A DNA stretch of 64,000 bases from Streptomyces sp. TG1A-8 (lineage in GTDB: Bacteria; Actinomycetota; Actinomycetes; Streptomycetales; Streptomycetaceae). The notes under the pieces are model-generated. The model was given only the letters and a program-made list of their open reading frames with translations. It had not been told where the DNA came from and did not search any database. Made by a program: the position numbers and the translations under genes. The DNA lies in contig NZ_JASTLB010000001.1 in NCBI RefSeq assembly GCF_030499535.1, positions 1,860,001 to 1,924,000 of the forward strand, in the 5' to 3' direction. This document shows, one piece after another, positions 21,195-34,837 of the stretch (position 1 is the first letter of the stretch; the number at the start of each line of letters is the position of its first letter).

Positions 21195-22178
21195 CTAGAC
21201 CTCCGGCCGGATCTTGCTGCCGATGTGGGCGAGGCGGATCGTGCGTTCCTCCGGGACCAGGCGGAAGTGGATGCGGCCGGCGCCCGGCGTGAACCGGGCG
21301 TGCAGGTCGAAGGTGCGTGTTTCCCCGTCCAGGTCGGCGAAACGGCACACGCGCTTGCGGGTCTCGCCCTCCGGGCTGACCTTGCTCCGCCACTCGGGCT
21401 CGGCCGTGGCCGCCGGGTCCCACGCGGCGACGGCTTCCTCCAGCCGTTCCAGGGCTCGCCGTACGGGCACCACCCAGTGCGGGTTCAGGCCGCCGAGCTG
21501 GCCCTCGACGCGCGGCAGGAAGGTGAGGTGCGGGTAGAGGTCGGTCCGGCCGTCCCAGATCCGCAGGCCGGTGGTGACGCTTTCCCGGCGCGCCTTCCGG
21601 ATCCACTCCAGGTGTCCGTCGAGATGCGGGTCGGCGGACAGGTGCCGGACGTCGACGGTGTCACGCCGCATCTCCAGCGTGCCCTCGTCGTCCTCGACGA
21701 GTTCGGCGCGCTCCAGTGTGACGTGGTCGGTCTGCCACGGGTGGGCCACCGGAAGCTGGAACGGCTGCTCGGCCAGGTGCGCGCGGACCGATCCCTCCGC
21801 CAGCGGCATGACGTCCCGGTCGGGGTGGCGGATGTCGTACGCGGCGGCCCAGGTCCGCTGCTCGCCGTCCTCCTCGATGACGAAGCCGACGAGCGGCTCG
21901 CGGACGGAGGGGAGTTCCTCCACCGGTCCGAAGTCCTCGTGCAGGACGTCCTGTGCGGTGCCCAGGGTCACGAGATCACCGTTGAGCAGCAGTCCGCCCC
22001 CGGCACGTCTGGCCCGGATGAGCATCTGCGTCTCGTACGACTGCCGCAGCAGCCCCAGCGCCTGCAGGACGCTGCTCTTGCCGGAGGAGTTGAGGCCGGT
22101 CAGGAGCGTCAGCGGGCCGAGGGGGAGTTCCAGACGCCGGAACGCCTTGAAGTTGATCAGCGTGATGCGGTTGATCAC
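21195..22178 (-). CDS. AAA-family ATPase paired with a DUF262 protein
   Basis: The 327-residue protein begins like RecF/SMC/OLD-type ATPases: INRITLINFKAFRRLELPLG, then Walker A GLNSSGKSS at 28-36, and a Q-loop-like LGLLRQSYE at 41-49. A clear ABC signature and Walker B are not seen; the family usually continues past 350 residues, so this copy may be short at the C-terminus. Its GTG overlaps the stop of the DUF262 gene (GTGA), so the two are translationally coupled. I infer that they form one complex, possibly in defence against foreign DNA. No other function can be assigned. Confidence 0.82.
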   Translation of the reverse strand: MINRITLINFKAFRRLELPLGPLTLLTGLNSSGKSSVLQALGLLRQSYETQMLIRARRAGGGLLLNGDLVTLGTAQDVLHEDFGPVEELPSVREPLVGFVIEEDGEQRTWAAAYDIRHPDRDVMPLAEGSVRAHLAEQPFQLPVAHPWQTDHVTLERAELVEDDEGTLEMRRDTVDVRHLSADPHLDGHLEWIRKARRESVTTGLRIWDGRTDLYPHLTFLPRVEGQLGGLNPHWVVPVRRALERLEEAVAAWDPAATAEPEWRSKVSPEGETRKRVCRFADLDGETRTFDLHARFTPGAGRIHFRLVPEERTIRLAHIGSKIRPEV

Positions 22179-23440
22179 TGCCCGGCCCCGCTCCGCCCCT
22201 GGCCGAGCGCCGTCTCCAGAAGTTCCTTGACCGCGTCGAACCGCTTGCGCACCTTCCTGGCGTCACCGGTGCCCACGGAGATGGCACGTTCGAACTCCAC
22301 GTCCTCCATCAGCTCCGCGAACGCGTCGAGGACGTCGGTCTGCCGCAGCGCCTCGCGGTCGTCGTCACCGAGACTCGCGAGATTGACGGCGACCGCCTCG
22401 AAGAGCGCCTTGTTGATGGGCGACTTGCGTTGCTGGTTCCGGCGGTACTTCCGGAAGGCGTGGTGGCCGAAGATCTCCTCGGCCGCGAGCATCGCCGTGA
22501 GGAACTCGGTGCGCAGGCGGTTCTCCTCCGCGCTGTCGAGACGGTTCACCTGGTGCATCGCCTCGGCGAGGAACGCGTCGAAGTCACCGGGCTTGTACGC
22601 GTGCGGGGAGGTCATCCGGAAGGCCAGGAAGCGAAGGACCATCTCCCGGTCGGCCATCCGGTCACCGACGACGCTGTGACCGGTGGCCCGCCGGAACTCC
22701 TCGGTCTCCGCGAGCTCCGCGAGGAGCGTGCGCGCCCGGCCCGAGATGAGCGCGTGCCGGATCTCCTGCCGGGTGAGGGGCTCACCTCCGGTGTTGATGC
22801 GCGCGAAGACGTTGAACATCACCGGCTCGGGGGTACCGCGCCGGATGACGTGGACGACGACCTCGGTCTCACGCAGCCGGATCTGGAGTTTCCCGGACAG
22901 GTTCGCGAAGCCCGTGCCCTCGAAGTTGCGCAGGTACTCCAGGCCCGTCAGTTTCAGCGGGTCGGCGCCGACCGCCTCGGGCTCCACGAAACGGGCGATG
23001 GACGTGAGGCGCTGGATGCCGTCGACGATGGCCCAGCTGCCGTCCTTCTTCTCGGCGGCGTAGAAGGACGGGATGGGGATGCGCAGCAGCAGGGACTCGA
23101 TGAGCCGGGACTGCTTGCCGTCGGTCCAGATGCCCGCCTTGCGCTGGAAGTCCGGGGCGAGGTCGATCATCTCGTTGCGCAGCCGGGACAACAGCAGGTC
23201 GACGGTCGTCGTCCGGGTGTCGATGTCGATGTGCTCGGGGTCGAAGGGAGAGGTGATCTGCTCGATCACCACATCCTCGGCCTCCTCGCGCTCGATGTCG
23301 GTCGGCCGGCCGTCGGTGGTGACCTCCACGGAGAACAAGGGGGATTCAAGCTCCCCGGCATCGGTCGCGGCGTCCTGGTACCGCTCGAACACCGACCGTT
23401 GGTCCCGTGTACGCCCCTGGCTCTCCTCCAACGCCGCCAT
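22175..23440 (-). CDS. DUF262-domain protein (ParB/Srx-like fold, GmrSD relative)
   Basis: The 421-residue protein carries the DUF262 signatures: PDFQRKAGIW at 96-105, the IVDGIQRLTSI block with Asp140, Gly141, Gln143 and Arg144, and FARINTGGEPLT near 212-222. In GmrS and SspE-like proteins this fold binds nucleotide and drives DNA cleavage by a partner or a fused HNH (DUF1524) domain. No DUF1524 domain is present here; the last 150 residues are helical. It is the first gene of a two-gene unit with the AAA ATPase. The ATG is certain from coding character, although its ribosome site (AGGG, 12 bases away) is weak. Confidence 0.88.
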   Translation of the reverse strand: MAALEESQGRTRDQRSVFERYQDAATDAGELESPLFSVEVTTDGRPTDIEREEAEDVVIEQITSPFDPEHIDIDTRTTTVDLLLSRLRNEMIDLAPDFQRKAGIWTDGKQSRLIESLLLRIPIPSFYAAEKKDGSWAIVDGIQRLTSIARFVEPEAVGADPLKLTGLEYLRNFEGTGFANLSGKLQIRLRETEVVVHVIRRGTPEPVMFNVFARINTGGEPLTRQEIRHALISGRARTLLAELAETEEFRRATGHSVVGDRMADREMVLRFLAFRMTSPHAYKPGDFDAFLAEAMHQVNRLDSAEENRLRTEFLTAMLAAEEIFGHHAFRKYRRNQQRKSPINKALFEAVAVNLASLGDDDREALRQTDVLDAFAELMEDVEFERAISVGTGDARKVRKRFDAVKELLETALGQGRSGAGQ

Positions 23441-24224: not shown

Positions 24225-25091
24225 ATGGGTGTGACGGAGCAGGGATCTCGGGGCGGTGACGGGATGGAGCCGTACGGCGCGGATGACGAGGAGTCGGCGG
24301 CGGTACTGCGGATGGTCGGCAGGATCATCAAGACGTGCCGCGAGCGGAAAGGGTTCACTCAGGCGGAGTTGGGGACGGCCATCGGATACAGCGAGGAGCA
24401 GGTGTCCTCGGTGGAGCGGGGGCGGCGGGCGCCGAGTCCGACGTTTCTGGAGGCGGCGGACGAGGTGCTGGACGCCGGTGGGCTGATCGTCGGGCTGAGG
24501 AAGGACGTGGAGCAGGCCCGGTACCCGAAGAAGGTGCGGGATCTGGCGAAGTTGGAGGCGGAGGCGGTTGAGATCTGCGCCTACGACAATTCCGTTGTCA
24601 ACGGGCTCTTGCAGACGGAGGAGTACCTGAGGGCCGTATTCGGGTCAAGGCGGCCGGCGTTCTCGGAGGAGGAGGTGGAGCGGCTTGTCGCTGCGCGGTC
24701 GGCGCGGCAGTCGGTCGTTGCCGGAAAGCACATGATCCCGTCTTTCAGCTTCGTGCATGATGAGGCGACACTACGGAGGCGAGTCGGGGGCAGAATGGTG
24801 CTACGCCGACAGCTCGAACGGCTGTTGGAAATCGGGCAGATGCGGAACGTGGAGATCCAGGTGCTTCCCATGGATCGTGAGGACAACGCCGGTCTCGGCG
24901 GCCCCTTCCACCTACTGCGGCTCAATGAGGGCACCACGGTGGGGCACAACGAGGTTCAACGGACCAGCCGACTGATCTCCGAGCCCAAGGAGATCCAGAT
25001 CCTTGAGCTCCGCTACGGGGTCCTCCGTGCTCAAGCCCTTCCGCCGCAGGAGTCGCTGGCCTTCATCGAGAACGTCCTTGGAGAGACATGA
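24225..25091 (+). CDS. XRE-family regulator with DUF5753 domain
   Basis: The 288-residue protein has an N-terminal helix-turn-helix (residues 28-85, CRERKGFTQAELGTAIGYSE, then QVSSVERGRR) and a C-terminal DUF5753 domain, the standard Streptomyces architecture. Family features seen are GLLQTEEYLRAVF near 128, QIQVLPMDRE-type residues near 215, and the FHLLRLNEG strand. ATG follows GGAGG by about 10 bases. It overlaps the DUF397 gene in ATGA, so the two act as a pair; known pairs regulate development or secondary metabolism, a few acting like toxin-antitoxin units. Confidence 0.92.
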   Translation: MGVTEQGSRGGDGMEPYGADDEESAAVLRMVGRIIKTCRERKGFTQAELGTAIGYSEEQVSSVERGRRAPSPTFLEAADEVLDAGGLIVGLRKDVEQARYPKKVRDLAKLEAEAVEICAYDNSVVNGLLQTEEYLRAVFGSRRPAFSEEEVERLVAARSARQSVVAGKHMIPSFSFVHDEATLRRRVGGRMVLRRQLERLLEIGQMRNVEIQVLPMDREDNAGLGGPFHLLRLNEGTTVGHNEVQRTSRLISEPKEIQILELRYGVLRAQALPPQESLAFIENVLGET

Positions 25092-25510: not shown

Positions 25511-28500
25511 TCACCCGTTGAGCGCCACGCACTCCCGGAGCACCGGTTCCAGGCGCAGCTGGGTGTCCTCGCGGTCGAAGACCTGGAGGGCGTCGAGGCA
25601 GTTGACGATCCACCGTGCCTCGTCCTCGTCATCGATCTTGAGCGCGACGGCGGTCACCGCGCCTTCCAGGTCGAAGAGGCCGTCCTTGAACTCGTCGTTG
25701 AGGGCTCGGTATCCGGCGGCCAGCAGCGGATCCGCGTACACGCCGGTCGCCTCGGCGAATGCGCGGGCCTCAGCCCGGTCCGCGCGGAGGTCGGCCAGAC
25801 GGCGCAACACCTCGTCGGGGTCGCCCAATTCCTCGTGCAGGCGGTGGGCTCGGTCCACCAGGAGCGGCCAGCCGCCGGTCAGTTCGTGGAGACGGTCCAG
25901 GCGGTCCTCCGTGTGGAACACGTTGACGCGCTGGGCCCAGCCGCGCAGGCTGCGGTGGTCATGCCTACGCAGCACCACCGGGGCGGCCGAGGTGGATTCG
26001 GTTCCCGTCAGCAGGGAGCGCCACAGGGCGAGCTGGGCGGGGTCGGTCACGAGGACGACCGCGCGGGTGACCCCCGGAGTGGCGGGCAGCAGCGTCTCGG
26101 CCAGGTCGACGGCTTCGCGGCAGGTTTCGGGCCGGACCGGCTCCCGGTAGTTGACGAAGTCGCTGATGACGACCCGTCGCTCTCGGGGGCGTCCGCCGGT
26201 GAGTTCCTGTTTGTAGACGCTGGGCTTGCCCACGGGTGGCAATGTCCAGCCGTCGATCGGTCCGGCGATCGTACGCAAGGTCCGGGCGACGTCGGTGACT
26301 CCGGTGGCGGTGCTGCCGAGGACGACTCGGGTCCGGTTGGACCGCTCGCCCAGGAGGTCGTCGAGCTGGGTGTTGGTCAGCGGAGCCGACCGCCCGTCGG
26401 GGAGCTCGGGGCGGCCCTCCTGCACGATGCTCTCCTGCAGTTCACAGTCCTGTTCGGCCCTAAGCAGACGTGCCTCCACCTCGTGGGAGGTACCGATCAT
26501 GCGCAGGGCGTTGGGACCGCGCAGATGCCAGCCCAGTCCGTCGTGGTTGGGCGCGAGGATACCGAGACCCACCATCTCGGAGAGGTAGGCGCGGAAACCC
26601 TCGGTGTCGAGCTGTTCGAACCCCTTGCGCCAGTACGTCTCGCACTCCTCGCGCAACTCGGTGTCGCTCAGCCGCACCTCCAGGCCGTGATGGCGGGCGT
26701 GGTACGCCAGCACATTGGCGATCACGTCGTAGCGGTGGTCGAGGCTCAGCGTGTCCTTGAAGGCCGCCGAGATGCCGTCCCGGAGCGCGGCGTCCGACTC
26801 CACGATCTCGATGTCGGTCACCTCCACCTCGTAAGGGGGTTCCCCGGCGCCGCGCCGCGTCCGCTTGCGGTGCATCAGCTCGACCAGCCGGTGCCCGAAC
26901 ATCTGCAGCAGGAACGGCTGGTACGAGCAGTAGCCGAGCACACGGTTGACGAGATCCAGGTCCTTGAACTCGAACCCGAGCGCCCGCATCGGCTCGACCA
27001 GCAGTTCCGCAGCCGACTGGGGAGCCAGCGGGCCGATCACCTTCGGGGTCTGGGCGAGGTGGCCGAACGGCCCGTTGCTCGCGAGCTTCGAGAAGCGCTG
27101 CACAGAGTGAAGTCCTGCGAAGACGACCTTCGCCGCGTCCTTGGTGTCGGACCCGAGGCCCTTGAGCTTCTTGGTCTGGTCGAACCGCGGGGCGTCGGCC
27201 TCGAAGAACTGGTCGCACTCGTCGAGCAGGATCAGCAGTCTGCGACGGGAGTCCCCGTCCAGCCAGGTCCGGATGCCAGCGCGCACCCGCTCGGAGGTCT
27301 CCTGTCGTTTTCCGCGCCTCTGCGGCCGGTCATCGAGTACCTGTGCCACGGTCAGCTCCCTCAGTAAGACGCTCCACAGCGCCTCCGGCCCGCGCGAGCT
27401 GCCCTTGCCGATGTTCTCCTGGTCGAGGTTGACGTACACCGTCTGGTGGTAGCCGGGGCGCTGCTCCGTGAACAGTTCCCCGGCGTCGGCGAGCAGCGCC
27501 GACTTGCCCAGGCCCCGGCCGCCGTAGATGACCTGAGTGCCGCGCGGGTCGAGGATGCTCTTGCGTTCGGCGTCGCGGCCGTAGAACATCTCGCCGCCGA
27601 TCCGGCCGCGCTTCTCCCTGATGTACGGGTTGACGCCGGAGAAGGGCAGCAGGGTCTGCGTGGCGGCGCTGACCTGGCGGTTGCCACGGGCCGCGAGATA
27701 GGCGAGGGCCGCGTCGTCCACCACGAGCAGCGGCTGCAACCGGTCCGAACCGGCGGCGAGTTCGACTCGGGCCTCACGGCTCAGCGTGCCGAAGTAGACG
27801 ACGAGAAGGCTCGCTCCGCTGGTGTCCCGCTCCGCCCAGCTCATGACGACCTTGGCGGGCGGCCTGCCCCAGACCATCATCACCCGCAGGTTGCCGCCCT
27901 GCTCCTTGATCTGCGAGCCGAACGCGGGCGCCTTCGCCCTGCCGTTGATCTCCACGCCGGTCGCTTCGAAGAGACGGTACTCCCGCCGGTGCTGGGATCG
28001 GTCGTCGAGCGGCCTGGCGCTCTTGGCGTCGTAGCCGAGGAGCTTGAGGAGAGGCGGCACCTGCCGCGTCGGAGCCACCTGGAGCCGGTCCTTCCGTTCG
28101 GTGGCGGCAAGCGCGCGCCACTCGTCGAGCGCGTCGGCCGCCAGCGCCGCCTCGTCGGTGGAGAGGCCGCCGTAGTCCAGGACGGGGACCATCGGATGCT
28201 TGCCGCCGGACCGGACCAGCTCGACGAGCTCATGGTCGATCCCTCCGGGCAGGCCGTCGGGCACGGCCGGGAAGAACTCGGTCAGATGGGACTCGCCGCC
28301 CTCGATCTCCGGGACCGGTTCGCCGATCTCCAGGAAGTAGACGAGGTCGGCAGCGGTGGCCAGGTCGTTCGTCTCCAGGCGCCGCAGGACCTGGGCCCGC
28401 TCCTCCACGGAGGGGTCCAGGGCGTCGAGCCGAGCCCGGATCCGGTCCGCCGCCTGCTCCCGGAAGGCCGGCAGGCCACTCCGTACCGTGTCGAGCGCCC

Positions 28501-31500
28501 GCCGCACGTGCAGTAGGTCGTGTCGGTCGGCGCTTTCGAGGCGGTTGTGGGCGTCGGCGAGCAACTCCTGAAGACCGAGGTCCTGATCCTCGGTCACGGC
28601 GCCATCGGCCTGCGCACGGTGCAGCTCGGCGACGAGTGCGTCGTGTGCCTTCCGCAGCTGCGCACGCCGGGCGTTCTCCCTGTCGTCGATCTCGGCTTCC
28701 GCGGGCGGGACGAACTCCCCCGCCCCGGCGGCAGGCAGCAGCCCTCGTCCGGCCAGCTCGACGATGTCACGGGCCGCGGTGAACGCGTCGCGGGAGAGCC
28801 GCTCGTCCAGAGCCTCCTGCCAGCTCCGGTGGACCGCGGTCAGCAGTTCGTCGGGCGACGGCCACTCGTCACGGGTGTCACACACCTTCAGCAGCTCCGC
28901 GTCCAGCACGAGCGCTGGGTCGACGGGACCGCCGGAACGCGTGGTCACGGTGTCGCCGGCCAGCAGGGCGAACAGCTCCTCCATCGAGGCGTGGGCCGCC
29001 CAGGCCATCGCGCCCGAGAGGGCGTCCGGGCGCCGCGCCAACCGCTCCAGTTCGCCCAGCGCCGCTTCCCTGCCGTCCAGCAGGGACTGTCGCAGGGAGG
29101 AGATCTCCTTGACCGCCCGGTTGCCGTCGGAACGGTCGCCGCGACGGGTGCCGTCGACCGCCAGGCACCACTCCTTGACCAGGCTGACGGCCCGCTCCAC
29201 GAGATGCACCAGGTCCTGCCGTCCGGAGCCCTGAAGCGGCTTGCCGCTGGACGAGCGGTACTTGCGGTCCATGCGGTCGATCTCGCTGTTGACCTCGGCC
29301 AGTTTCGACAGCCGATCGGCCTGCTCCCGCACCTGCTGCAGCGCGTGGCGGTCGTCACCGACGACGGTCGTGAGCAGCGATCCGAGCATCCCGTCGTCGG
29401 GGGCGAGCCAGCGCTTGGCGATCTCCGTCGCCCGTGCGAACCGCAGCCGCTGCGGCGCGAGCAGGACACGGCTCTGCTCGCGCAGCTCCCGCAGCCGGAC
29501 CTCCGTCTCGGAGGCGTCGGCGACCAGTGGCGAGGCGATCAACAAGGCGCCGCTGAGGGCACGGTCGGCAACGGCGGCCGCCGCCTCCCCCAGCCGGTCC
29601 GGGAGCCGCGGCACCAGTGCCTTGAGCTGAGCACCCGCAGCGTGGTCGCCGGTGATCAGCGCGGTACGCAGCAGGGCGGGGAGCAGGAGGAGTTCGCTGC
29701 CCTCGCTGTCCTGGCCCGCGTATCCGCCGTACTCCTGAAGCAGGTCCGCCGTCAGCCGGGCACTCTGGCTGTCCCCGGAGGTGAGCAGCGCGGCGGCACC
29801 GGCCAGGCGGATCGCCGCCACCTGGGGCTCGGGGTGGCCGGCGGCCCTCGCCACATGGTGGGCGAGTCCGAAGCGCCGCTCCACGACCAGCTGCGCCAGG
29901 ACCCCCTCGACCGCGGCCTCATCGGTGGCGTCGTCCGCCGCCGGGGCCGCTTCCCGGACGGGTGTGTCCTGCACGGGAGAAAGCGTGGGTGCGGCGGGTG
30001 TCTGGGCAGGCGCGTCAGCGGACGTGGGGGGCGCCGAGTCGCTGTCGGCGGCCGGCGCGGCGTCTGCGTCGGGGGCGTGGACCGGCTCGGCGGTCGTCGT
30101 GGCTTCCGGCCCGGCGGCGGGCTGGGGCGTGATCGCCTCGGTCGGTGCGGCCGACTGCACGGTTCCGTGTTCTGCGGTCGTCTCGGCGTCGGCGGGCTCG
30201 ACGGTGCCGTGCGCCCCGTCGGTCCCGGCAGGGTGCGGGTCACCGTCCACCGGCTGGTCCAGCGTCAGCTCGGGAGCGATGAGCACCGCCATGGCGCACG
30301 TGGGCAGGACCCGTACGACCTGCACCTGCAGGGCCAGGATCTCCGTCGCGGCATCCGCCTGTCGTCCCAACCTGATGAGCCGGGCCAGGGCGGCGAGCGC
30401 GGCGCTCTCCTCCCGTTGCGGCTCCTCCCACACCGGCACGTCCAGCAGGCGGCGGGCCGTGCCGCGCACGGCCTCAGCGGCAGCGGCGGCAGCGGCGGAA
30501 CTGTCCGGGCGACAGGCGACATCCAGCAGTTCCCGCAGCGGCTCGCGGGCCTGGAGGTCACGCTCCCGCGCTGTCCGGTGTGCGCGTGCGGCGCGCGTCA
30601 TGTCCTCCAGGCGACGAGGCACCCCCTCGATCCCGGCGGCCCGGAACACCGCGTTCACGTCGTTGAAAGCAGTGCTCAGCGCAGCGAGCGGAGCCAGGTC
30701 CGCGTCCCGCGGAGGGCGGCCGTCCATGACCGCGTCGGTGACCTTCTCCGCGGCCTGGCGGGCCCCCGCCAGGGCGGACTCCAGCTGCCGACAGGCCTCC
30801 TCGGGAGCTGTCCCCGCCTTGGTCCCGGTGTCGTCGGACGCGGGAGCGGTCTCCTCATGCGAAGTACCGGGGTCCGCTACCGCGGTCTCCGGTGCGGGGG
30901 CGCTGGTGCCCGGCCGGTCGGCGATGGCAGCGCCCCCTGGTCCACTGTCCTCCGCGAGCACCAGCCCGTCGTCTTCCGCCGCTCCCAGGGCGAAATCGGG
31001 GTACGCCTCCACGAGGGGCCGCGCCGCGGCAGCGACGGCGGCGAGCCGGGCCGCCTCCTCGTCGTCGGCCGTCGCGCCGAACCAGTCCTGGTCCGCCGCC
31101 CAGGAAAGGATGTGGGCGTCAGTAACGGAGGCGTTGCACCACGCGAACACGGTGACCCGGACCAGCGTGGCGCCCCACCGGGCAACAGGGTCGGAAACCG
31201 GCTCCCCGTCGTGCGCCAGGACGAAGTCGCGCACCTGGTTCATCACGGTGACCGTGAGTCCCTTGATCCCGCATGTGCAGGTGTGCTGCCGCGACTCGCG
31301 TCGCAGCCTGGTGAGGACGTCTCGGCACAGGGCACTGCTCACCCGTCGAGGAGCCGACATGCGGATGCCCAGACTGGTGAGCAACTCCTGACGGTGCTTG
31401 GGTCGCAGGGAGTTGAAGGCGAGTTCCACCATGTCCGCCGTCAGGTCGTTCAGGGCGGCGGCGGCCGGGGACCCCAAGGCGTTGAGCGCGGCGGCCAGGC

Positions 31501-31573
31501 CTTCCAGGTCCTCGGCCGAGACGCTCGGCGGGGACCACGGTGGCCCTGTGACGACGCGGTAGCGATCCTGCAT
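25511..31573 (-). CDS. Giant STAND-like P-loop ATPase (2,020 residues), second gene of a two-gene cassette
   Basis: Residues 1-200 are helical with a CTCG pair; 200-320 and 460-560 are Ala/Pro/Asp-rich linkers around a helical block; 560-1250 are TPR-like helices. At about 1335 comes MFYGRDAERKSILDP, then Walker A YGGRGLGKSALL (near 1350), and Walker B RRLLILLDECDQFF near 1449. A winged-helix-like segment (GLGILAPNHDGLGWHL) and a second alpha/beta region with VVISDF and VVLVTDPAQL follow. It lacks recognisable nuclease or TIR residues, so the effector is unknown. ATG at 31573 follows GGAG by 9 bases. It lies 99 bases after the partner gene. A conflict or defence function is inferred. Confidence 0.88.
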   Translation of the reverse strand: MQDRYRVVTGPPWSPPSVSAEDLEGLAAALNALGSPAAAALNDLTADMVELAFNSLRPKHRQELLTSLGIRMSAPRRVSSALCRDVLTRLRRESRQHTCTCGIKGLTVTVMNQVRDFVLAHDGEPVSDPVARWGATLVRVTVFAWCNASVTDAHILSWAADQDWFGATADDEEAARLAAVAAAARPLVEAYPDFALGAAEDDGLVLAEDSGPGGAAIADRPGTSAPAPETAVADPGTSHEETAPASDDTGTKAGTAPEEACRQLESALAGARQAAEKVTDAVMDGRPPRDADLAPLAALSTAFNDVNAVFRAAGIEGVPRRLEDMTRAARAHRTARERDLQAREPLRELLDVACRPDSSAAAAAAAEAVRGTARRLLDVPVWEEPQREESAALAALARLIRLGRQADAATEILALQVQVVRVLPTCAMAVLIAPELTLDQPVDGDPHPAGTDGAHGTVEPADAETTAEHGTVQSAAPTEAITPQPAAGPEATTTAEPVHAPDADAAPAADSDSAPPTSADAPAQTPAAPTLSPVQDTPVREAAPAADDATDEAAVEGVLAQLVVERRFGLAHHVARAAGHPEPQVAAIRLAGAAALLTSGDSQSARLTADLLQEYGGYAGQDSEGSELLLLPALLRTALITGDHAAGAQLKALVPRLPDRLGEAAAAVADRALSGALLIASPLVADASETEVRLRELREQSRVLLAPQRLRFARATEIAKRWLAPDDGMLGSLLTTVVGDDRHALQQVREQADRLSKLAEVNSEIDRMDRKYRSSSGKPLQGSGRQDLVHLVERAVSLVKEWCLAVDGTRRGDRSDGNRAVKEISSLRQSLLDGREAALGELERLARRPDALSGAMAWAAHASMEELFALLAGDTVTTRSGGPVDPALVLDAELLKVCDTRDEWPSPDELLTAVHRSWQEALDERLSRDAFTAARDIVELAGRGLLPAAGAGEFVPPAEAEIDDRENARRAQLRKAHDALVAELHRAQADGAVTEDQDLGLQELLADAHNRLESADRHDLLHVRRALDTVRSGLPAFREQAADRIRARLDALDPSVEERAQVLRRLETNDLATAADLVYFLEIGEPVPEIEGGESHLTEFFPAVPDGLPGGIDHELVELVRSGGKHPMVPVLDYGGLSTDEAALAADALDEWRALAATERKDRLQVAPTRQVPPLLKLLGYDAKSARPLDDRSQHRREYRLFEATGVEINGRAKAPAFGSQIKEQGGNLRVMMVWGRPPAKVVMSWAERDTSGASLLVVYFGTLSREARVELAAGSDRLQPLLVVDDAALAYLAARGNRQVSAATQTLLPFSGVNPYIREKRGRIGGEMFYGRDAERKSILDPRGTQVIYGGRGLGKSALLADAGELFTEQRPGYHQTVYVNLDQENIGKGSSRGPEALWSVLLRELTVAQVLDDRPQRRGKRQETSERVRAGIRTWLDGDSRRRLLILLDECDQFFEADAPRFDQTKKLKGLGSDTKDAAKVVFAGLHSVQRFSKLASNGPFGHLAQTPKVIGPLAPQSAAELLVEPMRALGFEFKDLDLVNRVLGYCSYQPFLLQMFGHRLVELMHRKRTRRGAGEPPYEVEVTDIEIVESDAALRDGISAAFKDTLSLDHRYDVIANVLAYHARHHGLEVRLSDTELREECETYWRKGFEQLDTEGFRAYLSEMVGLGILAPNHDGLGWHLRGPNALRMIGTSHEVEARLLRAEQDCELQESIVQEGRPELPDGRSAPLTNTQLDDLLGERSNRTRVVLGSTATGVTDVARTLRTIAGPIDGWTLPPVGKPSVYKQELTGGRPRERRVVISDFVNYREPVRPETCREAVDLAETLLPATPGVTRAVVLVTDPAQLALWRSLLTGTESTSAAPVVLRRHDHRSLRGWAQRVNVFHTEDRLDRLHELTGGWPLLVDRAHRLHEELGDPDEVLRRLADLRADRAEARAFAEATGVYADPLLAAGYRALNDEFKDGLFDLEGAVTAVALKIDDEDEARWIVNCLDALQVFDREDTQLRLEPVLRECVALNG

Positions 31574-31590
31574 GTACACGCACTCCGTTT

Positions 31591-31628
31591 CTGTGGGTGA
31601 CGGGAAGAAGCCTGTGGGTGACGGGAAG
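31591..31628. repeat. Two direct repeats with 21-bp period in the cassette spacer
   Basis: CTGTGGGTGACGGGAAG occurs at 31591-31607 and at 31612-31628. The repeats lie in the 99-base gap between the two cassette genes, just ahead of the ATPase ribosome site. A period of two helical turns suits a protein or a repeat-driven RNA structure. Confidence 0.75.
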
Positions 31629-31672
31629 GAGAGAGGGGTCCGGAACCATGGACACGCGAAAGCCGTAAAAGG

Positions 31673-33964
31673 TCAGCGGCCGCGCGTGTGCTCGGTCACG
31701 AACGTGTAGCCGTACGGCAGTTCCCAGCCGTCCGCCTTGCCGAGCCTGCGGCAGTGCTCCCGGAAGGCCGCGCGCTGAACGTCACTGGGCAGACACCCCG
31801 GCCGCAGGCGGCGCAGATGACCTGCGACGAACTGAGCGTCGCGCAGTCCCTCGCCGCCCGGTTCGCCACCGTCCCACGGACGTATCACCCGCGGCCTGGC
31901 GGGGCGGTAACCGATGAGGGGAATGGTCCGCTGTCCGTCACGCGGCGGGAAGTGCGGCTGCCCCCAGGCGTCCCGGCTGCCGAGGGCCGGCTCCAAAAGA
32001 CGTTCCGCGAGCAGTCCCGCGACGGCCGAGTCCAGGGCGGCGGCCTGCGACCGGGCGGGTCGGCGCCCATAGACCGCGCTCGGCAGGACCGACCGGTCCA
32101 TCAGGGCATGACCGTCCAGGGTGAGCAGACCGCAACGGCGCACGGTGCGCATCACCAGTTGCCGGGGACCCAGCCCGACCGCGCTGTCACCGTGGCGGCT
32201 GCTGCCCGGCACGTCCTCCCTGGTGAGCACGCGCGGGTCGTAACAGTGCCCCGTCTCACGGTCACCGGCTTGCACGCGTTCCTTCAGCCGCGTCGTAGCG
32301 AGGCGAATCACTGTGTCGCCCCGGAGTCGGCGCAGCTCCAGCATCAGGCCGGGGAAGAAGTCACCGGGCCAGACGACTCCCGTCAACCGACCGGACTCTT
32401 CGCCGAGTTCGGCCGCGACGTTCTGCACCGCCTCCTTCTCGTCCAACGTCTCACCAGCATGGTCGAGTTCGAGGCGAAGCGTGGGGTGCGCACCGTGGGG
32501 CCGGCAAAGCTCCTCCGCGACGAACGGGTGCAGGGGAAACCAGCCGCCGATGAGATGGGCCAGCCGCAGGGGAGCCCGCCAGACGATCTCCTGCGCGTCG
32601 CTTCGCAGGAGTTCTCCGGTGCCGAGGGCGTCGTCGGCGAGGGGCGCGTCTACCGGTTCCAGCTCCACTTCCGTTTCCGGCTCCGGCAGTGCGTGCAGTG
32701 TGGAGTTCCAGCCGCGCCCGGCCGGGACCAGGGGGTCTCCGGGTGCCTCTGCGTCACCGGGATGGTGGGACCGCCACACCCCTCCCCCCTCGAAGGCATC
32801 GTCAAGCGTGATCCGGGAGCCGTTACCGAATAGGCCATGATCGCTGTCCCCTTGGACCACGTCGGCGAGCGCCACGTTCGCCCGGCACACCGCAGCGGCA
32901 TACCCCGCTCCCCTGAGCCGCTCCGCCGCCCCGGGAAAACCGCGAAGTCGTGGTCCGACCGCTGTGTACACAGTGCTCGGAGCGATGAGGCCGCGTCGCC
33001 GCCTCGCCGGGGTGGCCGCGCGCTCGACCGCGGCCACAAAAGACCTGAGGTCGTCGCCGCCCAGCGGTCCGGTGTCCCGCCAGCAGTCCGCGAGGGAGGT
33101 ACGGGTCATGGCGTAGTGGCCCCAGGTGCGCAACACGGCACTGGAGTCGAGGACACCCCGCACCGTGTCGAGGAGGCCGAGCAGTCCCGCCCGCAGATCG
33201 TCGTCGTGCGTGCCGCCCACCAGGGAAGCAAGGGAAACAGGGACGAAGGGGCTGAGAAGCTGCTCCCGAGCCGTCGTCAGGAGATGGTCTGCGTAGGCCG
33301 TCAGATCGTCGCGCCGGGCTGCTTGCGGGGACGGATAGCACACGTCGACGACGACATGCCCGTCCTCATTGATCCATCGCCCGCGTGTGCGTAAGCGATG
33401 AAGCTGGGCCGGTGACAGGCTCAGTGCCGGACCGAAGGCGTGGAGGTCCGGGACCAGCAGCTCCCTGCGCCGTGGTTCGGCGTCTGCACCCGGCCTGCCC
33501 GGGCCCTCGGCGCCCGCGGGCGCCCCCGACACCCAAGCCGGTACGTCACCGAGCGCGCCCACCTCCGGGTGCGCGCCCTCCCGGTAGACGATTTCGGCGT
33601 AGAGCGGGTCCGACCCGGTGGCGACACACACCATGGCACCGACCGGGAGCACGGGAGCGCACTCACCGAAGGTGATGACGGGAAAGTCGTCGAGGCACAG
33701 CGGGCTTCCGCCGTAGCCGTCGCCGCCGAGCTCGTACCCGAAGTACACGGCGTTGAAGGCGACCGTGGTGTGCACCGGCGCCGGACGGGCCGCGACAACC
33801 GCTTCGAGATAGCTCCGCAGTCGACTGCGTTCCCGGCCGGGGACGGCGTCGTAGCCCTCCGTCATGGCAGAGGTCAGGAGAGCCTGGTCACCGTACGGAT
33901 CCGGCACCCCCGTCCGGCCGCGTTCTCCGATCCCTTTTGCTGACACATACGGGTCCCCACCCAT
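31673..33964 (-). CDS. Unknown 763-residue protein, first gene of the giant-ATPase cassette
   Basis: I do not recognise this protein. It is soluble and has no signal peptide. Notable segments are FNAVYFGYELGGDGYGGSPL near 68, a Val/Gly-rich beta stretch (PVGAMVCVATGSDPLYAEIV) near 105, an Asp-rich centre, and a winged-helix-like region near 635-690 (VMRTVRRCGLLTLDG and AVAGLLAERLLEPAL). No P-loop, nuclease or kinase motif is seen. The ATG follows GGAGG by only 4 bases. It is transcribed with the giant ATPase, and its equal coding quality suggests that the pair moved and works as one unit. Confidence 0.82.
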   Translation of the reverse strand: MGGDPYVSAKGIGERGRTGVPDPYGDQALLTSAMTEGYDAVPGRERSRLRSYLEAVVAARPAPVHTTVAFNAVYFGYELGGDGYGGSPLCLDDFPVITFGECAPVLPVGAMVCVATGSDPLYAEIVYREGAHPEVGALGDVPAWVSGAPAGAEGPGRPGADAEPRRRELLVPDLHAFGPALSLSPAQLHRLRTRGRWINEDGHVVVDVCYPSPQAARRDDLTAYADHLLTTAREQLLSPFVPVSLASLVGGTHDDDLRAGLLGLLDTVRGVLDSSAVLRTWGHYAMTRTSLADCWRDTGPLGGDDLRSFVAAVERAATPARRRRGLIAPSTVYTAVGPRLRGFPGAAERLRGAGYAAAVCRANVALADVVQGDSDHGLFGNGSRITLDDAFEGGGVWRSHHPGDAEAPGDPLVPAGRGWNSTLHALPEPETEVELEPVDAPLADDALGTGELLRSDAQEIVWRAPLRLAHLIGGWFPLHPFVAEELCRPHGAHPTLRLELDHAGETLDEKEAVQNVAAELGEESGRLTGVVWPGDFFPGLMLELRRLRGDTVIRLATTRLKERVQAGDRETGHCYDPRVLTREDVPGSSRHGDSAVGLGPRQLVMRTVRRCGLLTLDGHALMDRSVLPSAVYGRRPARSQAAALDSAVAGLLAERLLEPALGSRDAWGQPHFPPRDGQRTIPLIGYRPARPRVIRPWDGGEPGGEGLRDAQFVAGHLRRLRPGCLPSDVQRAAFREHCRRLGKADGWELPYGYTFVTEHTRGR

Positions 33965-34294: not shown

Positions 34295-34750
34295 TCAGCC
34301 TGGGTTCGGCAGAGTTGCGAGTCGTTGCGGGGCTTGGGTGATCACCTCGGTCCAGGGCCAGTGGGCCGCGAGGCGGAGGACGCGGCGCCGTCCGGTGGTG
34401 ACGAGCTGTGCGGCGGCGGAGAACAGCCGGAGCCGCAGCCGCCGCGGTTTCCACCGACGGACGTCACCGCTCAGGGCGAGCATCGGCATCCACGCGAGCA
34501 GGTCAAGGGAGATCTGGACGATCTCCAGCCAGATCTGATTCTGTGCGGCGTCGTGGAGGGGAAGGTTGCGCAGGCCGGTGGCCCGTGCGGCCCGAATGCG
34601 GTCCTCGGCCCCCGCGCGCTGGCGGTGCCGCAGCTCGAGTGCGGCGATCGGGACGCTCTTGGTGTTGGTGGCAAAGGCGGTCAGCCGCATCCCGTCGGCA
34701 TCGATGATCCGCAACTGGGCTCCGGGGTGCGGCCGTACCTCCGGGGCGAT
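34295..34750 (-). mobile_element. IS1380-family transposase, C-terminal remnant
   Basis: The translation matches the end of IS1380 transposases as I know them: ADGMRLTAFATNTKSVPIAA, then LRNLPLHDAAQNQIWLEIVQ, LLAWMPMLALSG, LRLRLFSAAAQLVTTGRR and the end TLPNPG. About 150 residues remain; the N-terminal two thirds, with the first catalytic Asp, is lost near 34750. No terminal inverted repeat was identified. It marks one side of the defence-like island. Confidence 0.85.
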
Positions 34751-34837
34751 CACCATCGAGATCAGCGCCCGATCGGACTCACCGCCCTGCGGGCCAACTC
34801 GGCACGGGACCGCACAGCGGCCGTCACGCCGAGGGCA

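Follow-up and report, generated by a model that had tools for sequence, protein, structure and literature searches.

STAND NTPases, a group that includes the NLRs and the bacterial Avs-type sensors, undergo ligand-driven oligomerization, and their canonical order is an effector, the core, and C-terminal repeats. HEPN domains are known in general to accompany STAND NTPases (PMC3710099). pPIWI-RE systems combine a restriction endonuclease, a DinG helicase, and a pPIWI-RE protein (Burroughs 2013, PMC3702460); the word "ATPase" does not occur in that paper's text, nor does RecQ occur in that of a review of Exo-DinG helicases (PMC11981726). Here we describe a pair of genes in a 64,000-nucleotide stretch of the genome of Streptomyces sp. 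TG1A-8 (contig NZ_JASTLB010000001.1, positions 1,860,001 to 1,924,000; hereafter the window, numbered from its first letter). The pair encodes a giant ATPase with a STAND/Orc-type core and, upstream of it, a partner without a sequence family, which we call P2 (Table 1). The two genes are linked, and with somewhat better than even confidence we regard them as the core of a conflict system that senses DNA and acts against mobile elements. P2 would be its DNA reader and the ATPase its switch, and a helicase-nuclease, in the loci that have one, would provide the output.

P2 and ATPase genes are linked and patchily distributed

A preliminary description of the window, made from the sequence alone, had placed two open reading frames here, and both are found where it put them. 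Its protein length of 2,020 residues and spacer of 99 bases hold when the ATPase is counted from an ATG two codons past the GTG; from the GTG the spacer is 93 bases. The guanine-plus-cytosine (GC) content by codon position is 0.76/0.50/0.89 in the ATPase gene and 0.77/0.55/0.80 in P2, and the ratio of nonsynonymous to synonymous substitution rates (dN/dS) against seven homologous loci is 0.21-0.49 and 0.15-0.36, respectively. Codon-position GC and low dN/dS bear out the coding quality noted earlier and indicate that both reading frames are real, intact genes under purifying selection rather than chance occurrences. The spacer (31580-31672) contains a 17-base direct repeat, CTTCCCGTCACCCACAG, in two copies with 4 bases between them.

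In protein searches that each scored 8000 candidates, 373 homologues of P2 and 993 of the ATPase were found. Within 150 Streptomyces genomes, P2 is present in 15 and the ATPase core (C-terminus) in 27, and in 14 of the 15 P2-bearing genomes the ATPase lies downstream of P2 on the same strand and contig. G026 is the one exception, with a P2 fragment at 33% identity in a genome without an ATPase match. The preliminary description had named a partner found mostly without the ATPase as evidence against its proposal, and this is not the pattern seen. Of the remaining 13 ATPase genomes, six have a 31-35%-identical class of the protein. Another four (G028, G042, G079, G124) contain fragments of the gene or truncated copies, and in the last three (G048, G101, G104) the matches are short and weak.

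A scan of one genome per species (84,980 species) found at least 542 ATPase relatives, the best 80 matches of which gave the 76 loci compared here, a sample biased toward close relatives. Both genes are called in 65 of the 76, and tblastn adds L078. All 65 called pairs are on the same strand, in 61 the ATPase comes directly after P2 among the called genes, and the gaps range from -10 to 252 bases (median 93). Among the ten remaining loci, four are at contig edges (L064, L074, L097, L108) and four have shortened or frameshifted ATPases (L062, L068, L086, L095); L080 and L093 have an intact-length ATPase without P2, with L080 retaining upstream a 71-residue match to the helicase gene described below. 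Gene calls are incomplete at L002, L023, L024, L068, and L078, as tblastn or genome-search matches reveal.

Among 296 Actinomycetota genomes, a P2 profile found 4 matches (the window, G177, G346, and G107) and an ATPase profile 11, of which 5 span most of the core. G177 carries P2 and the helicase gene by a contig edge, with too little room for the ATPase core; the G346 match is to an 802-residue protein, in the C-terminal half only, and the G107 match is a 62-position fragment. Behind the ATPase of G368 (L159) come the helicase gene and a gene for a 479-residue protein missed by the P2 hidden Markov model (HMM) at 1e-3, which hhalign relates to P2 (probability 98.4, E 5e-15). Cassette copies occur on plasmids and on long chromosomal-looking contigs.

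A third gene in related loci

Several actinobacterial families, as well as divergent copies within Streptomyces, have a large gene ahead of P2, giving a triad in 35 of the 76 actinobacterial loci, with a 4-base overlap between this gene and P2 in 25 of the 35. Its product is a helicase of 1,897-2,010 residues in four locus copies that lie whole within the stretch of their locus. The two helicase proteins that were scanned (L030, L034) both have DinG-type Helicase_C_2 and a RecQ-like half with DEAD/Helicase_C; the exonuclease domain is matched by RNase_T in L030 (E 7e-8) and weakly, by RNase_H_2 only, in L034 (0.021). A pattern scan of five helicase proteins, one of them (L035) cut at its 5' end, found exonuclease motifs I, II, and III in 4, 2, and 4 of them, the Walker A of the DinG part in 5, and that of the RecQ-like part in 4.

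No DinG helicase stands beside the pair in the gene list and Pfam scans of the window. A full helicase gene elsewhere in the window's genome found no support: with the triad helicase as query there are three matches, all to the RecQ-like part and all elsewhere in the genome.

A quick ATPase tree (84 rows, 36 labeled triad and 28 pair, midpoint root) needs 3 changes between triad and pair labels, and none of 500 shuffles gave a number as low. Pairs fall in three places, next to or within triad clades, which makes three losses the simplest reading; three changes also fit one gain and two losses. Judged from these gene arrangements, the probable ancestor of the window's two-gene cassette had three genes, of which the helicase gene was lost, and the absence of that gene from the window's lineage is probably one of the three losses. 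The earlier term "two-gene cassette" is thus right about the linkage and needs amending as to origin. Because 21 labeled rows in the clade of the window keep the pair, it can probably function without a helicase gene, and no fixed replacement for the lost gene was seen near the pair.

Predicted architecture of the giant ATPase

Pfam gives only weak matches to the ATPase, for example AAA_22 (E 1.4e-4, below the family cut-off). NCBIfam and PADLOC on both window proteins reach a best E of only 0.17, and no model of PADLOC 2.0.0 fits either protein, the sole match being C3a123 at E 0.42. A STAND/Orc-type P-loop core with Walker A and Walker B is found by a match to 6mfv (E 4e-4) and by structure matches, which include CED-4, a resistosome, Orc, and TnsC. 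Both Walker motifs listed in the preliminary description are present, with invariant key residues (Table 1). A winged helix follows the NTPase core, with model positions 488-868 aligned over residues 1-350 of 2qen; the structure model starts at residue 830, and residues 1-829 lie outside it.

A second ATPase core finds no support in the sequence and is accepted here on predicted structure, by which the protein appears to consist of a STAND/Orc-type core with winged helix and a second, degenerate copy. The suggestion that this is a STAND sensor agrees with the core and its winged helix, but not with the canonical layout. Since the model places helices ahead of the core and a degenerate core behind it, we call the protein STAND-like and do not file it as a canonical STAND protein.

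P2, a predicted DNA-binding partner

P2 has no match in Pfam, and the earlier statement that it has no recognized domain holds for its sequence but not for its predicted structure. The modeled fold looks like a B3/EcoRII-N-type DNA-binding domain with winged-helix-like parts (Table 1). The B3 and EcoRII-N HMMs (PF02362 and PF09217) have no match at E <= 10 in the window's genome, a profile search of the PDB sequences at E <= 10 brings up no chain with a B3 domain, and neither Pfam nor the structure matches reveal a recognized catalytic domain in P2. The 802-residue protein of G346 (L156:6110-8518) joins P2's C-terminal B3-like half to a different N-terminus, in a genome without an ATPase match.

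The place of P2 in the operon and a short common N-terminal motif raised the question of whether it is a PIWI protein. Pfam and hhalign speak against this: hhalign of P2 with 3 pPIWI_RE proteins gives a probability of 0.5, and pPIWI_RE has no Pfam match in the ATPase or P2 at E <= 1. There is no PIWI protein among the 50 structure matches listed for P2, which is no proof.

Table 1. Positions in the window of the cassette genes, their parts, and neighboring features.
Feature	Position	Strand	Remarks
Giant STAND/Orc-type ATPase gene	25511..31579	-	2022 aa from GTG; alternative ATG start 31573 gives 2020 aa
ATPase residues 1-1169, N-terminal part	28073..31579	-	Helical in modeled section, i.e., from residue 830 on
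ATPase residues 1170-1316	27632..28072	-	Mixed alpha/beta stretch preceding core; outside most structure matches
ATPase residues 1317-1709	26453..27631	-	Active-looking ATPase core and winged helix
Walker A GGRGLGKS, residues 1353-1360	27500..27523	-	G, G, R, L, G, K invariant across 17 sequences
Walker B LLILLDECDQ, residues 1448-1457	27209..27238	-	D, E, D invariant across 17 sequences
ATPase residues 1725-2022	25514..26407	-	Predicted second, degenerate ATPase-like module without Walker A
Partner gene P2	31673..33964	-	763 aa from ATG; without sequence family
P2 residues 18-289	33098..33913	-	Winged-helix-like structure matches, weak
P2 residues 454-575	32240..32605	-	B3/EcoRII-N-like predicted DNA-binding domain
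P2 residues 596-690	31895..32179	-	Winged-helix-like structure matches, weak
Transposase remnant	34295-34756	-	Matches positions 293-434 of 435 in DDE_Tnp_1_4
XRE/DUF5753 regulator	24225-25091	+	
Neighboring operon gene 1, outside cassette	22175..23440	-	GmrSD_N (DUF262) E 2.6e-20; PADLOC NsnA E 1.2e-136
Neighboring operon gene 2	21195..22178	-	AAA ATPase, PADLOC NsnC/NsnB (NsnC E 3.6e-64); 4-base overlap with gene 1

Relatives of the ATPase with other partners

In Bradyrhizobium, Microvirga, and Azospirillum, the ATPase is annotated as a single "RNaseH domain-containing protein," and Pfam finds the X, MID, and RNaseH parts of pPIWI_RE in the Bradyrhizobium fusion. The gene before this fusion encodes a P-loop protein that is DinG-like by its motifs (Pfam gives weak AAA_30/MeaB only), and a HEPN-like gene with AAA_33 follows. 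A contig from IMG/VR encodes a 3,114-residue protein joining the pPIWI_RE RNaseH domain to the ATPase (L126:3011-12355), and from this contig the ATPase chassis may ride on a virus or other mobile element.

A HEPN-like gene for 332-557 residues, overlapping the ATPase gene or close behind it, is found in the 31-35% Streptomyces class, Salinibacter, Thiodictyon, Agrobacterium, Methylocystis, and L125, a second contig from a viral collection. In the Streptomyces class it follows in 5 of 6 cases (L022, L025, L026, L027, L028). The HEPN Rx4-6H motif is present, as R484 and H489 (R-x4-H, in the C-terminal part) are invariant in 14 of 14 aligned partners. HEPN_Swt1 matches 5 of the 14 at E <= 0.5 (best E 0.017); its Pfam cut-off of 27.5 is not reached, the two scores seen being 15.8 and 15 bits, and we therefore call these partners HEPN-like only.

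The Brasilonema plasmid pBOCT2 carries a fusion of the ATPase with sigma-70 regions 1.2-4 (L042:5624-12493), behind which lies a PLD-SNF2 helicase. In Burkholderia and Cupriavidus, partners of ~925 residues with 46% mutual identity come after the ATPase (L153:10460-13228, L154:10433-13234). Given these differing partners, the ATPase seems to serve as a chassis on which readers and outputs can be exchanged.

Genomic surroundings

The cassette has no constant neighborhood: when neighbors were clustered by similarity, no family occurred in more than 6 of the 76 loci, and only a few close relatives (L049, L053, L067, L081, L095) have flanking genes in common. A conserved housekeeping locus, which the preliminary description would have taken as evidence against it, was thus not found, and this clustering by similarity alone showed no replication, transposition, or BREX genes recurring around the ATPase.

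In the window itself, the transposase remnant (labeled IS1380 in the preliminary description) and the XRE regulator that had been described as bordering the cassette are both there. Past the XRE/DUF5753 gene, on the cassette's strand, PADLOC recognizes an NsnA/NsnC-like operon (Table 1). No tRNA genes were found within the window. Elsewhere, three cassettes have a conserved gene pair for proteins of ~1,578 and 185 residues beside them (L110:13851-19147, L062:8937-14230, and L099:3-2828, the last cut by its stretch).

To the left of the cassette up to 2 genes and to the right up to 4 were scanned with PADLOC, giving 118 of 156 neighbors at 23 of 30 chosen loci (Streptomyces and one Kitasatospora). 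The control was 118 of 125 proteins from 19 arbitrary Streptomyces regions, with all genes of at least 100 aa taken. At 1e-8, neighbors matched 208 families and control proteins 67, in sets not matched gene for gene. The 25 commonest families among the neighbors include JetA, JetB, and JetC (one match each), JetD (two), GajA, GajB, a CBASS cyclase, a 2TM effector, and PD-Lambda-1; L052 has a JetA, L056 a JetD, and L063 both GajA and GajB. In the control, the 25 commonest are 17 models of PD-T4-6, with one member each, and models of GlgB, mad, a kinase, DrmD, DpdE, and ZorD. In this small test, the Wadjet, Gabija, and CBASS models near cassettes amount to a tendency only. The earlier proposal of a defense role is supported to the extent that the window and several genomes have defense genes close to the cassette, and the role itself is one that we infer.

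Proposed mechanism and alternatives

In the DNA-sensing system that we favor, P2 would use its B3-like and winged-helix-like domains to bind DNA and so mark a target for attack. The ATPase would be an NLR/Orc-like switch, in which ATP binding at the first core, together with a regulatory second, degenerate core, would lead to assembly on the P2-DNA complex. In triads, the ATPase would then pass DNA to the exonuclease-DinG-RecQ protein for unwinding and degradation. In the window's lineage, where the helicase gene is missing, the complex would have to work by itself, as a roadblock to invading DNA or as its silencer, or else borrow a host helicase or nuclease. We put forward a bolder form of this proposal only tentatively, at clearly less than even confidence: that these loci represent a new class of DNA-guided bacterial immunity, in which a B3-type reader licenses a tandem NLR-like ATPase switch driving an exonuclease-DinG-RecQ machine, PIWI proteins have taken the reader's place in relatives and HEPN-like RNases that of the output, and the window's pair works without its nuclease.

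A core of STAND/NLR type with CED-4 and a resistosome among its structure matches, a helical part ahead of that core, and relatives paired with HEPN-like putative RNases whose Rx4H is invariant, a common toxic output, would also suit NLR-type abortive infection. Here the helical N-terminal region of the ATPase would sense a phage component, and P2, instead of being the reader, would be the toxic output, unless this lies in a part of either protein that escaped detection. We think this unlikely, since P2 has no recognized catalytic domain and looks like a DNA binder, and since the third gene of the triad, a helicase-nuclease, is a better fit to an attack on DNA. The same third gene could point to a DNA repair or chromosome-stress system, in which the Orc/CED-4-type ATPase would work with P2 to load RecQ/DinG helicases at sites of DNA damage: exonucleases and helicases of the DinG and RecQ kinds are repair-type enzymes, and Orc and TnsC are among the core's structure matches. 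However, P2 is patchy (15 of 150 Streptomyces), its flanks are mostly different, the helicase gene appears to have been lost repeatedly, and known defense systems adjoin some loci, all of which makes a repair function improbable. That the cassette is a replication or partition module of an integrated plasmid, with an Orc-like initiator and a DNA-binding partner, strikes us as very improbable, because copies lie on chromosomal-looking long contigs as well as on plasmids, no neighbor family recurs in more than 6 of the 76 loci, and the relatives' pPIWI_RE fusions and HEPN-like partners do not fit such a module.

Comparison with known systems

Every component described here is of a known kind. 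We found no description of their combination in the literature searched, whose coverage was limited, so that this absence is weak. With STAND NTPases and NLRs such as CED-4, RPP1, and the resistosomes, the window's ATPase has in common the P-loop core and winged helix, a predicted switch, and a defense setting. It differs from them in the helical part before the core and the second, degenerate core after it, in having no recognized effector domain, and in its separate DNA-binding-like partner gene; it is also several times larger than the closest fold relatives of its core. The actinobacterial triads resemble pPIWI-RE systems in their DinG-type helicase, and the Bradyrhizobium relative of the ATPase is itself fused to pPIWI_RE, but the window pair lacks a pPIWI_RE domain and has P2 in that place.

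The predicted fold of P2 residues 454-575 appears to resemble that of the B3/EcoRII-N pseudobarrel readers (VRN1, ARF, EcoRII, LlaJI.R1, UbaLAI, NgoAVII). Unlike these, P2 has neither a sequence match nor a recognized nuclease domain, and it is multi-domain and ATPase-linked. The triad protein shares an N-terminal 3'-5' exonuclease and a DinG helicase with the Exo-DinG helicases (PMC11981726), but adds a RecQ-like helicase half within one protein of ~1,900 residues.

These comparisons raise the testable question of whether a DNA reader can trigger an NLR-type ATPase, and of how a lineage keeps such a system after loss of its apparent nuclease. The ATPase family is large, and for the window pair it lies outside the reach of existing PADLOC models; its modular chassis connects NLR-like switches with PIWI proteins, HEPN-like RNases, and DinG/RecQ helicases.
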